Shown in pieces: positions 54,186 through 57,299 of a stretch of DNA of 64,000 nucleotides. A program made the position numbers and the translations under genes. How positions within the stretch are numbered: position 1 is the stretch's first letter; every line of letters begins with the position of its first letter. Below the pieces are notes generated by a model. That model was not told the DNA's origin, ran no database searches, and worked only from the letters and a program-made list of their open reading frames with translations. Origin of the DNA: Planctomycetota bacterium (GTDB lineage Bacteria; Planctomycetota; UBA1135; UBA2386); the NCBI GenBank assembly GCA_016795295.1, contig JAEUHP010000223.1, positions 1-64,000 of the forward strand, in the 5' to 3' direction.

Positions 54186-54689
54186 ATGACTGCGCACCCG
54201 CCCAGTACCCCTGACGCAGGCGGCGCGCCGCTGCCGGACGGGGGCCGGCTGGATCTGGACGACCCCAACGTGGTTGCCGATGCCGTGGCGCAGGTCTCGC
54301 TGCGGCTCCTGGCTGGCGCCGTCGAGCGACCGCTGTTCGCGCAGCTACAGAGGCAGCTCGCTGCCGCTCCGGACAGCTATCCCTGGCAAGAAGCGACCCG
54401 CGCGCTGTTGGCCTCGCCGGTCGACGCGCAGCAGTTGGTACAGCGCGGTCTGCAGGCGCAGCGGGACTGGATTCTGCGCGGGGGGCGTGAGACGCCGAGG
54501 CCGACGCTGGCGCGCCGAGCGAAAGGGCTGCTGGCGTGGTTGTGCGCGCAGTTGCTGTTCGCGGTGCTGTTCGCGGTGGTGCTGTTGGTGGGGCTGCTGG
54601 CTGTGAAGCATCGCTGGCCGGAGTTCGACGTCTACCAGGTGCTGGACTGGCTCTACCGGACGTTCCCGGCGCTGCGTCGGCCGGCCTGA
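54186..54689 (+). CDS. Small hypothetical protein with one membrane segment
   Basis: A 167-residue protein that I do not recognise. The N-terminal 110 residues are soluble and acidic/helical (DLDDPNVVADAVAQVSLRLL), then a strong transmembrane helix (LCAQLLFAVLFAVVLLVGLLAV) and a short C-terminal tail (HRWPEFDVYQVLDWLYRTFP). It would place the N-terminal domain inside the cytoplasm. It is separated from rpmB by the 18-bp repeats. Confidence 0.6.
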   Translation: MTAHPPSTPDAGGAPLPDGGRLDLDDPNVVADAVAQVSLRLLAGAVERPLFAQLQRQLAAAPDSYPWQEATRALLASPVDAQQLVQRGLQAQRDWILRGGRETPRPTLARRAKGLLAWLCAQLLFAVLFAVVLLVGLLAVKHRWPEFDVYQVLDWLYRTFPALRRPA

Positions 54690-54899
54690 GTCTGGGTGCT
54701 CGGCCGTTGCGTGGCCTTGTGCCCGTCTCATTCGGCGGCGCGCCGTTCCCGGGATCGCTCCGGCCTCGGGCGCACGTTCTTGGTTTGGAATCGAACTGAA
54801 GATGCTTCGCGGCAATGGTTTGCAACTTTGTTGGCCGGTGGGGCGGTAGGGTCTGTGGAGAGAAGGTGGAGAGTCGCTCAAAAAACTTTGCCCATCCTG

Positions 54900-54928
54900 T
54901 TGAAAGCTTCCCCCGCACGAGGCATGCT
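54900..54928 (+). promoter_or_regulatory. Candidate promoter for the structured RNA
   Basis: TTGAAA (54900-54905) and CATGCT (54923-54928) are exactly 17 bp apart. An A-tract (CAAAAAAC) lies about 15-20 bp ahead, where an UP element would sit. Predicted start is near 54935. Confidence 0.45.
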
Positions 54929-54934
54929 ACGGGG

Positions 54935-55206
54935 GTTCCGACGCGGGCCGGCTAGCCTGGCTGGGCTGCGGCGGAAACGGCTGAGGCGCAAGCCGAGGCC
55001 GACGAGACGCTCTCTTTAGACCGCTGGTTTCGACTGACCATCGGGACCAGCCGAGGACGGGCAACCGCCCTCGTCAGCAGACACCAGTCGGGTCGTGGCT
55101 GTGTGGTGGAGACCAGTATCCCCCCTCCCTAACCGCCCTCTCCATTGCGTAGCCTGACCCGCATCCACGGGCCTCAGTTCTGACCGGCTGAGGCCCGTAT
55201 TTTTTT
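54935..55206 (+). ncRNA. Candidate structured non-coding RNA, unknown class
   Basis: No reading frame is credible here, but the strand folds well. A long-range helix joins 54940-54954 with 55150-55165. A hairpin at 54978-55001 has a GCAA tetraloop and a tandem G-A/A-G internal pair. A ten-pair hairpin occupies 55024-55050 with a seven-base loop (CTGACCA), and another at 55052-55073 has a second GCAA loop. The unit ends in a strong intrinsic terminator. It has its own promoter-like sequence and a separate -10-like TAGGTT (55258) before the next gene, so a free-standing RNA seems likelier than a leader; an attenuated leader cannot be excluded. Motifs of RNase P, tmRNA, SRP, 5S and the common riboswitches were not found. 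Both ends are estimates. Confidence 0.6.
55167..55206 (+). terminator. Strong intrinsic terminator
   Basis: ACGGGCCTCAG and CTGAGGCCCGT pair perfectly (11 bp) around a ten-base loop, followed by A and seven T residues. It is the clearest terminator in the window. No protein gene ends within 470 bp upstream, which is why an RNA gene is proposed there. Confidence 0.92.
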
Positions 55207-55299: not shown

Positions 55300-55938
55300 A
55301 TGACCAGACCCGGTTTTCGCCAGGGCCGTTCCGGAGGGGCGCGTGGTGGCGCCGAGGGCGGCGATGGCTTCCTGAGCGCAGCGCTGTTCTCGCAAGCGCA
55401 GATCCTGCACCTGATGCGCAACGAGTTCGCGCGGGCGCGGCGCCACGGCATCCCCCTGGGGTGCATCCTGATGCAGGTGGACCGACTGGCCCAGCTGGTG
55501 GACTTGCACGGTGCCGAGTTGCGCGCCGCGGTGCGGCAGGCGCTGGGGCAGTTGGTGCGGGAGAAAACCCGCGGGGCCGACCTGCTCGGCGTGGTCAACG
55601 ACGATCGTTACCTGCTGGTGCTGCCGCACACCAACCTGGAGCAGACGCGGATCGTGGCCCAGCGCCTGCAGGGACTGTTCGGGGGGCTGTCGATTCGCGT
55701 CGGTGGGCGCGAGTTGGTGCTGTCGCTGAGCGTCGGCTTCAGTGCCTGCGTGGACCAGCAGACCATGTTCTTCGACACGCTCATGGGGCAGGCCGAGGCG
55801 GCGCTCGAGTTCGCCGGGCGGCAGGGCGGCAACCGGGTGTTGTCGTTCGGCGAGGCTCAGCTGCACGGCGCTGGTCCCGTGTCGGCAGCGGACGACCGGC
55901 GCGAGCCGCCGGCTGGAGAGCAGCGAGGCGCCTCGTGA
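55300..55938 (+). CDS. Degenerate GGDEF-domain protein
   Basis: A 212-residue protein with a diguanylate-cyclase-like fold from about residue 30 to 180: FARARRHGIPLGCILMQVDRLAQLVD (strand/helix one) and LLGVVNDDRYLLVLPHTNLEQT, where the GG(D/E)EF loop is replaced by NDDRY. The catalytic signature is lost, so it is probably a regulatory or binding domain rather than an enzyme. The start is uncertain: a GTG six codons upstream is also possible. It overlaps the NtrC-type regulator gene (GTGA), so the two are probably translated as a unit. Confidence 0.75.
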   Translation: MTRPGFRQGRSGGARGGAEGGDGFLSAALFSQAQILHLMRNEFARARRHGIPLGCILMQVDRLAQLVDLHGAELRAAVRQALGQLVREKTRGADLLGVVNDDRYLLVLPHTNLEQTRIVAQRLQGLFGGLSIRVGGRELVLSLSVGFSACVDQQTMFFDTLMGQAEAALEFAGRQGGNRVLSFGEAQLHGAGPVSAADDRREPPAGEQRGAS

Positions 55939-57299
55939 GCGACGCGCCGATGCGCATCCTGCTCGTCGAAGACGAGCAAACCATCGCCATCACACTCCGC
56001 GACGACCTCGAAGGCGCTGGTTACGACGTCGAGCACGAGCCGGATGGCAAGGCCGCGATCGGTCGCCTCGGCCAGCGCAGCTACGACGTGGTGATCACGG
56101 ACGTGCGCCTGCCCTCCGCCGATGGCATGCAGGTGTTGGCCGCGGCCAAGCGCGCCCGCCCCGACACCGAGGTGTTGATCATGACTGCGTACGCGACGGT
56201 CGAGCACGCCGTCGAGGCGATGCGGCTCGGAGCCGACGACTACATCCAGAAGCCGTTCCTCAACGAGCACGTGCTCGAACGGCTGCGGCGGATCGGCAAG
56301 TTCCGCAGCCTGTTGTCGGAGAACCAGCGCCTGCGCGAGCAGTTGCAGGGCAGCCATGGCCAGGGCTTGCCGGGGGTGATCGGCTCGAGTCGCGCCATGC
56401 AGTCCGTGGTCAAGACGGTGCGCACGGTGGCCACCACCGATGCGTCGGTGTTGATCGAAGGCGAGAGCGGCACCGGCAAGGAGCGCATCGCGCGGGCGGT
56501 CCACCTGCTGAGTCCGCGCAAGGACAAGCCGTTCGTCGCGTTGTCGTGTGGTGCCCTGCCCGACACCCTGCTCGAGACGGAGCTGTTCGGCCACGAGAAG
56601 GGTGCCTTCACCGACGCGCAGCGGCTGCGCCGCGGCCGTTTCGAAGTCGCCGACGGCGGCACCATCTTCCTCGACGACATCGACGACATGCCGTTGTCGG
56701 TGCAAGTCAAGCTGCTGCGCGTGCTGCAGGAACGTGAGTTCGAGCGCGTCGGCGGCGAGAGCCTGGTGCGGGTCGACATTCGCGTGGTCGCGGCCACCAA
56801 GGTGCCGCTGCTCGAGCACGTGCGCGCCGGCAAGTTCCGCGAGGACCTCTACTACCGACTCAACGTGGTGCCGATCCGACTGCCACCGCTGCGCGAGCGC
56901 GAGGGCGACCTGCCGCTGCTGGTCCAGCACTTCGTGGAGAAGCTGGGCGGTGGTCGCGCCTATGCGGTGAAGACGGACGTGCTCGAGGCCATGAGTGAAT
57001 ACTCCTGGCCCGGCAACGTGCGCGAACTGGAGAACCGTTGCGCCCAGGCGATCGCCATGTCCGGCGGTGCCACGGTTCTCAAGAAGGAGCACCTGCTGCC
57101 CATCGACAAGAGCCGGCGCGCGGCGCTCGAGCCGCCGACGGCGCTGCAGTCGCTGCGCGAAGTGCTGGTCGAGGCCGAGCGTGAGCACTTGAAGAACGTG
57201 CTGCGCGCGGTCGGCGGCCATCGCACCAAAGCCGCGTCGGTGCTCGGCATCTCGCGCAAGGTGCTGTGGGAGAAACTCAAGGACTACGGGATCGAGTGA
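55935..57299 (+). CDS. NtrC-family sigma-54-type response regulator
   Basis: A 454-residue regulator with three domains. The receiver (1-120) has the phosphorylatable Asp56 (VVITDVRLP) and conserved Lys106 (QKPF). The AAA+ core (about 145-370) has Walker A GESGTGKE (176-183), GAFTDA in place of GAFTGA (223-228), Walker B TIFLDD and R-finger region. The C-terminal Fis-type helix-turn-helix is GHRTKAASVLGISRKVLWEKL. It would activate sigma-54 promoters on phosphorylation, though the altered GAFTGA loop could weaken sigma-54 contact. No sensor kinase gene is adjacent. The GTG start overlaps the preceding stop. Confidence 0.92.
   Translation: MSDAPMRILLVEDEQTIAITLRDDLEGAGYDVEHEPDGKAAIGRLGQRSYDVVITDVRLPSADGMQVLAAAKRARPDTEVLIMTAYATVEHAVEAMRLGADDYIQKPFLNEHVLERLRRIGKFRSLLSENQRLREQLQGSHGQGLPGVIGSSRAMQSVVKTVRTVATTDASVLIEGESGTGKERIARAVHLLSPRKDKPFVALSCGALPDTLLETELFGHEKGAFTDAQRLRRGRFEVADGGTIFLDDIDDMPLSVQVKLLRVLQEREFERVGGESLVRVDIRVVAATKVPLLEHVRAGKFREDLYYRLNVVPIRLPPLREREGDLPLLVQHFVEKLGGGRAYAVKTDVLEAMSEYSWPGNVRELENRCAQAIAMSGGATVLKKEHLLPIDKSRRAALEPPTALQSLREVLVEAEREHLKNVLRAVGGHRTKAASVLGISRKVLWEKLKDYGIE

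Follow-up and report, generated by a model that had tools for sequence, protein, structure and literature searches.

A predicted structured RNA with an invariant C-rich loop, distributed across Planctomycetota

We describe a predicted RNA of about 272 nt, encoded near 55 kb of the window (the whole 64,000-nt stretch of planctomycete DNA that was analysed), in which a covarying 16-bp stem closes a C-rich loop that stays invariant even in remote families of the phylum. That this is a real structured RNA is very likely; the boundaries of its gene, its structure, the invariance of the loop, its distribution and its independence from the downstream gene are shown. A first-pass annotation of this DNA had proposed a structured RNA outside Rfam, and this held, with a conserved promoter and terminator, compensatory changes and recovery by covariance model across the phylum; the invariant C-rich loop, which is the most important feature, had been missed. 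The RNA (window 54935-55206) consists of five hairpins and an intrinsic terminator:

54880-54928, forward strand: promoter, with an A-tract (54880-54885), a -35 box TTGAAA (54900-54905), a 17-nt spacer and a -10-like box CATGCT (54923-54928)
54935-55206, forward strand: predicted RNA, about 272 nt, supported by its fold and by the alignment of 23 full-length homologues
54946-54966, forward strand: hairpin P1, loop AGCCU, in the RNAalifold consensus, with double-sided changes at 6 of 8 pairs
54978-55001, forward strand: hairpin P2, from fold and consensus, with a GCAA loop in the window genome and a variable loop elsewhere
55023-55051, forward strand: hairpin P3, loop CTGACCA (55034-55040), TGACCA being invariant in 23 family genomes on a covarying stem
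55052-55073, forward strand: hairpin P4, from fold and consensus, with a GCAA loop in the window genome that is not conserved
55090-55160, forward strand: core hairpin, with an outer helix (55090-55094/55156-55160), a 16-bp stem (55097-55112/55139-55154) and the C-rich loop (55113-55138, 26 nt)
55122-55143, forward strand: 22-mer CCCCTCCCTAACCGCCCTCTCC spanning part of the loop, identical in almost all carriers of the window's order; its phylum-wide form is CCCTCCCYAACCGCC(C/A)TC
55167-55206, forward strand: intrinsic terminator, with perfect 11-bp arms (55167-55177/55188-55198) and TTTTTTT at 55200-55206

The signals that delimit the gene are conserved. A sigma-70-like promoter with an upstream A-tract had been claimed, and it held although a consensus promoter scan did not call the window's boxes TTGAAA/CATGCT, which are poor by consensus: the box pair of the family (TGTTGAAA, 16-18 nt, then a CATGAT/CATACT-type box) occurs in 31 of the 32 homologous loci with readable upstream sequence, the sole exception (L028) having only the -35 box in register. 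The claim of a perfect 11-bp terminator with seven T residues held as well. Its loop, TTCTGACCGG, is invariant across 23 family genomes, and in the family alignment the CUGACC of this loop is closed by two U-G pairs. Because a C run inside the otherwise invariant core varies in length between 5 and 6 among homologous loci, a coding explanation is disfavoured. With its own promoter, an intrinsic terminator, no conserved open reading frame and a structure under selection, the gene has the sequence features expected of a trans-acting sRNA gene, its expression being inferred. Upstream of it (54186-54689) lies the gene of a small protein of unknown function without a Pfam match, adjoined by genes for ribosomal protein L28 and an MnmA-type tRNA-modification enzyme.

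The predicted fold of 54930-55206 has an energy of -138.9 kcal/mol, compared with -116.6 ± 4.8 for shuffled sequences (z -4.64; none of 200 shuffles was as low). The molecule as a whole is not closed by any helix; the long closing helix of the first-pass annotation is best understood as the 16-bp stem around the 26-nt C-rich loop. The two GCAA tetraloops reported there are present in the window and are not conserved, the homologues carrying UUCG, GAAA, CUCG or other loops at these positions. The annotation had also called for an Rfam search and for a covariation analysis of homologous loci, and both were run. The former gave no match to a known family; the latter, on the full-length alignment of 23 family members, found compensatory double changes that kept pairing at 33 of 73 consensus pairs. 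Within the core stem, 8 of the 16 pairs are changed on both sides among near relatives and 95.8% of cells remain paired, as against 39-55% in a control in which the partner strand was slid, and the core hairpin re-forms in these relatives with a loop of 21-26 nt. Across the phylum, in the alignment made with covariance model R2 (see below), 14 of 16 pairs are double-changed, with 123 such cells compared with 36 in shuffles; this alignment was fitted to the structure, and one of its rows is a spurious reverse-strand match.

The loop of the core hairpin is unpaired in the predicted folds, C-rich, and reads CCCUCCCYAACCGCC(C/A)UC out to distant Planctomycetota families. In the window's family it is UAUCCCCC(C)UCCCUAACCGCCC, and in distant families the same loop, with Y=C, sits on stems of unrelated sequence. 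Since the stem has been free to change and the loop has not, we infer, from sequence alone, that the loop is the functional part of the RNA. Within it lies the anti-Shine-Dalgarno core CCUCC. A search of 84,980 species, each represented by one genome, gave 36 exact matches to the 22-mer CCCCTCCCTAACCGCCCTCTCC, almost every one in a metagenome-assembled genome named Planctomycetota. As a separate observation, two hairpin loops, those of P3 (55034-55040) and the terminator (55180-55185), share CUGACC in almost every genome of the family, in the terminator without exception; the main loop carries the similar CUAACC. The CUGACC loops are confined to the window's family and are not found phylum-wide.

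The distribution of the RNA was established by sequence and by covariance searches. In a blastn search with the stretch, 33 of 34 genomes of the same family, the window's own included, showed long matches. In the exception (G002, family f1) the contig breaks off some 125 nt upstream of the ortholog described below, and truncation would therefore explain the missing RNA. Among these loci the 5′ half varies fast, and across genera the 3′ part keeps about 75-98% identity. Covariance model R1 found the RNA in 42 of 154 genomes of the window's order at E 3.2e-11 or better, in families f1, f3, f4 and f6; f5 and f7 gave no match, and f8 a single marginal one. It also matched distant families; two further R1 matches (L122 and L123) were rejected as chance palindromes. 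Model R2, built from the near-relative and distant sets, matched 35 of 392 genomes of the phylum at E ≤ 8.2e-8, the next match reaching only 5.6e-4. Several genomes outside the training set were among those found, for example G217, G289, G267, G345, G341 and G275, and the specificity of the model rests on this score gap and on the f5 and f8 genomes. In all, the RNA is present in 15 families, usually as one copy per genome. The hairpin is itself the T-tailed terminator in f33, f11 and f41, whereas a separate terminator follows it in f47, f15, f27 and f71; f47 also has its own TTGACA/G promoter box. One genome of f33 (G202) carries a second, partial copy (L204:1489-1528) in which the loop is the same and the stem unrelated, possibly a paralogue.

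A copy was also found in a virus. In the 41,965-bp contig of a tailed phage (IMGVR_UViG_3300038548_000477, L067), R2 matched with 39.5 bits (E 1.1e-9), and the RNA hairpin lies at L067:4250-4330, between the head scaffolding and head morphogenesis genes on the opposite strand. An alternative fold of this copy is slightly better than the core hairpin. Downstream of it (L067:4392-4748) is a gene for a small predicted lipoprotein with a lipoprotein-like signal (MKYLALFVALLPSC..). No further viral copy appeared in a second scan, and none was found in phage and plasmid collections.

Two genes follow the RNA in the window, and the earlier identification of a degenerate GGDEF gene and an NtrC-type gene downstream held:

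55300-55938, forward strand: degenerate GGDEF-domain protein, with ..NDDRYLLVLPHT.. at the GGDEF position (GGDEF match E 4e-14), linked to the RNA in eight families
55935-57299, forward strand: NtrC-type response regulator with receiver, sigma-54 activator and Fis-type HTH domains, overlapping the stop of the GGDEF gene

The RNA is followed by an orthologous degenerate-GGDEF gene on the same strand in f1, f3, f4, f6, f24, f27, f47 and f71, the gene usually starting 80-330 nt after the RNA core. Yet the 13 genomes tested from f11, f15, f33, f41, f43, f54 and f75 have no such ortholog at all, their best matches reaching only E 6e-22 to 8e-33, compared with 1e-46 to 5e-78 for the orthologs. Unrelated genes adjoin the RNA in these families where flanks could be read (in f41 and f54 the contig stops shortly past the RNA, and the f75 flanks were left out). 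Conversely, the gene is present without detectable RNA in all f8 genomes tested and in the single f7 genome tested, and a divergent RNA hidden upstream of these orthologs was rejected, as none was seen by motif or by eye. Each thus occurs without the other, so the RNA is independent of the GGDEF gene and the gene of the RNA. The first-pass annotation had left the choice between a free RNA and an attenuating leader; the 13 ortholog-less genomes favour a free, trans-acting RNA, and we regard it as likely that the RNA acts in trans and is not an obligatory leader. In f1 the N-terminus of the degenerate-GGDEF protein is rich in Arg and Gly (MTRPGFRKGRPGG; window 55300-55360) and in f6 it is RG-rich, a feature absent in f47 and f27; by analogy, it is possibly reminiscent of the RGG tails of RNA-binding proteins.

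Searches for partners narrowed the possible modes of action. Neither Hfq (PF17209) nor CsrA (PF02599) was found in any of 28 genomes (18 with and 10 without the RNA), with controls positive. No long conserved antisense target was detected: leaving the RNA gene aside, 15-base complements with at most one mismatch were about as frequent in 33 genomes as those of a reversed control. Between the loop and the start of the linked gene, only weak pairing was seen in f1 (z -0.67 on average, with 3 of 60 permuted loops doing as well or better), and none in f47 and others. In window codons 9-14 of this gene (55323-55339) the complementarity to the RNA loop has 3 mismatches, and in this part of the gene f1 over-uses GGA/GGG among its glycine codons (33 of 55, compared with 115 of 491, without correction for phylogeny). 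In three Planctomycetota genomes the 16S tail was read, and it ends GGATCACCTCC. That the loop pairs with the 3′ end of 16S was considered and rejected: an 8-base complement exists in E. coli 16S, but the three planctomycete ends (CGGCTGGATCACC) mismatch.

The model that we favour is one of short-seed pairing with mRNAs. Transcription would run from the RNA's own sigma-70-type promoter to its own terminator (expression being inferred), and the stem would hold the long C-rich loop open. Short stretches of the loop, with its CCUCC, would then pair with purine-rich ribosome-binding sites such as GGAGG or GGGAGG in a number of mRNAs, and the RNA would so block or tune translation of these without Hfq, as a chaperone-independent antisense RNA. 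We favour this reading because the loop is open, C-rich and contains CCUCC, because Hfq and CsrA were not found, and because 6C/B11 and LhrC offer precedents. The C-to-U change at the Y position of the loop is compatible with pairing to G and supports RNA pairing; further support comes from the compensatory stem with its invariant loop, the conserved promoter and terminator, the usual single copy in each genome over 15 families, the lack of the downstream ortholog in seven of them, and the phage copy. Pairing with the ribosome-binding regions of mRNAs nonetheless remains an inference, without transcript or interaction data, and we would put it no higher than an even chance. The anti-Shine-Dalgarno argument is partly a consequence of C-richness alone, and the roughly 15 invariant bases exceed the 6-7 that a Shine-Dalgarno seed needs, an excess that protein binding could possibly explain.

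Indeed, the RNA may instead be recognised by a protein through one or more of the loops AGCCU, CUGACCA, CUAACCG and CUGACC and serve as a sponge or scaffold, like CsrB titrating CsrA. This alternative is possible. It would account for an invariance longer than a pairing seed requires, for the failure to find a long RNA partner, and for the CURACC sequences of three hairpin loops, which vary little or not at all within the window's family, together with AGCCU in P1. Against it, CsrA is absent and there is no other known partner protein, the CUGACC loops are restricted to the window's family, and a single invariant loop per molecule, as in most families, would make a poor sponge. A more specific version, that the partner is the linked degenerate-GGDEF protein, acting for example as a decay or activity factor as CsrD does with CsrB/CsrC, draws on the linkage conserved in eight families, the loss of the active-site motif and the Arg/Gly-rich or RG-rich N-termini in f1 and f6. 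We consider it unlikely, since the protein is absent from every genome tested of seven RNA-bearing families, f7 and f8 have the protein without detectable RNA, and the RG tail is not seen in f47 or f27.

It is equally doubtful that the RNA is a cis-acting leader controlling the degenerate-GGDEF/NtrC operon through termination. RNA, terminator and GGDEF gene do lie on the same strand in eight families, but the expectation that a leader always stands upstream of the same gene is not met: seven RNA-bearing families lack the ortholog (13 genomes tested) and, where flanks were readable, have unrelated genes next to the RNA, the gene persists without detectable RNA in f7 and f8, and RNAalifold shows no conserved antiterminator. 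Least probable is a Planctomycetota counterpart of 6S RNA acting as an RNA polymerase decoy. The window genome has no match to RF00013 and the RNA does have a long hairpin with an open region; that region, though, is a large apical C-rich loop rather than a central promoter-like bubble, and there is no Rfam match. With the RF00013 model unmatched and such a bubble absent, 6S identity was rejected.

The RNA also could not be assigned to a known family. Rfam 15 gave no match at gathering score anywhere in the 64-kb window (tmRNA, RNase P, SRP and every other family), so the reported lack of RNase P, tmRNA, SRP, 6S and riboswitch motifs held for Rfam families, and a search of the RNA stretch up to E 10 returned nothing credible. 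Matches to MIR918, ylbH and ncS011 at homologous loci were below gathering scores, did not cover the core hairpin and were rejected. The closest likeness is to 6C/B11 of Actinobacteria (RF01066). In mycobacteria, which lack identified chaperones of the Hfq/ProQ type, 6C/B11 binds ribosome-binding sites through C-rich loops (PMC10470900). Shared are a C-rich unstructured loop, a single short RNA and hosts without Hfq, binding to ribosome-binding sites being only inferred for the present RNA. However, it belongs to another phylum, has extra hairpins in the window's family, and carries one long mixed loop, CCCUCCCYAACCGCC, where 6C has two hairpins with plain C strings; the 6C model gave no cmscan match to the window stretch (to E 10) or to 20 homologous loci (to E 0.5). 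LhrC of Listeria, which acts on the Shine-Dalgarno region through CU-rich loops including that of its terminator (PMC4132741), belongs with RsaE, FsrA and RNAIII to the UCCC-motif sRNAs, and resembles our RNA in having UCCC motifs in its loops; unlike it, LhrC is a multicopy Firmicutes RNA of other structure, without homology. CsrD acts through CsrA, CsrB and CsrC (PMC5876332), and the CsrB/CsrC system likewise combines a recurring loop motif (here in the window's family) with a degenerate GGDEF-type protein (here encoded beside the RNA in some families), but the invariant loop has no GGA motif, CsrA is missing from the 28 genomes, and the protein is missing from seven RNA-bearing families. 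Finally, the Rhodopirellula-1 motif is a candidate structured RNA of Planctomycetes and Proteobacteria (Weinberg 2010, PMC2864571), for which the published table prints no Rfam accession; no proteobacterial record is among the exact-core matches of the RNA described here. No described Planctomycetota small RNA turned up in the literature searched, and nothing there matches this one. Regulatory RNAs with a C-rich loop are known as a kind; this family, judged by its loop, structure, host phylum and linkage, appears to be new, identity with the Rhodopirellula-1 motif not being excluded.

With about 15 invariant loop bases carried by covarying stems in 15 families, this RNA is a strong candidate core regulator of a phylum without Hfq or CsrA in the genomes tested. 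A bolder reading, which we offer only as a possibility, is that a single RNA with an anti-Shine-Dalgarno-like loop may act as a widespread global regulator of translation in Planctomycetota without Hfq or CsrA, old enough for a phage to have acquired it and for about half of the RNA-bearing families to have tied it to a degenerate-GGDEF partner. The covariance model and the invariant core make the RNA searchable in existing planctomycete RNA-seq data, and the family offers a handle on post-transcriptional control in Planctomycetota.
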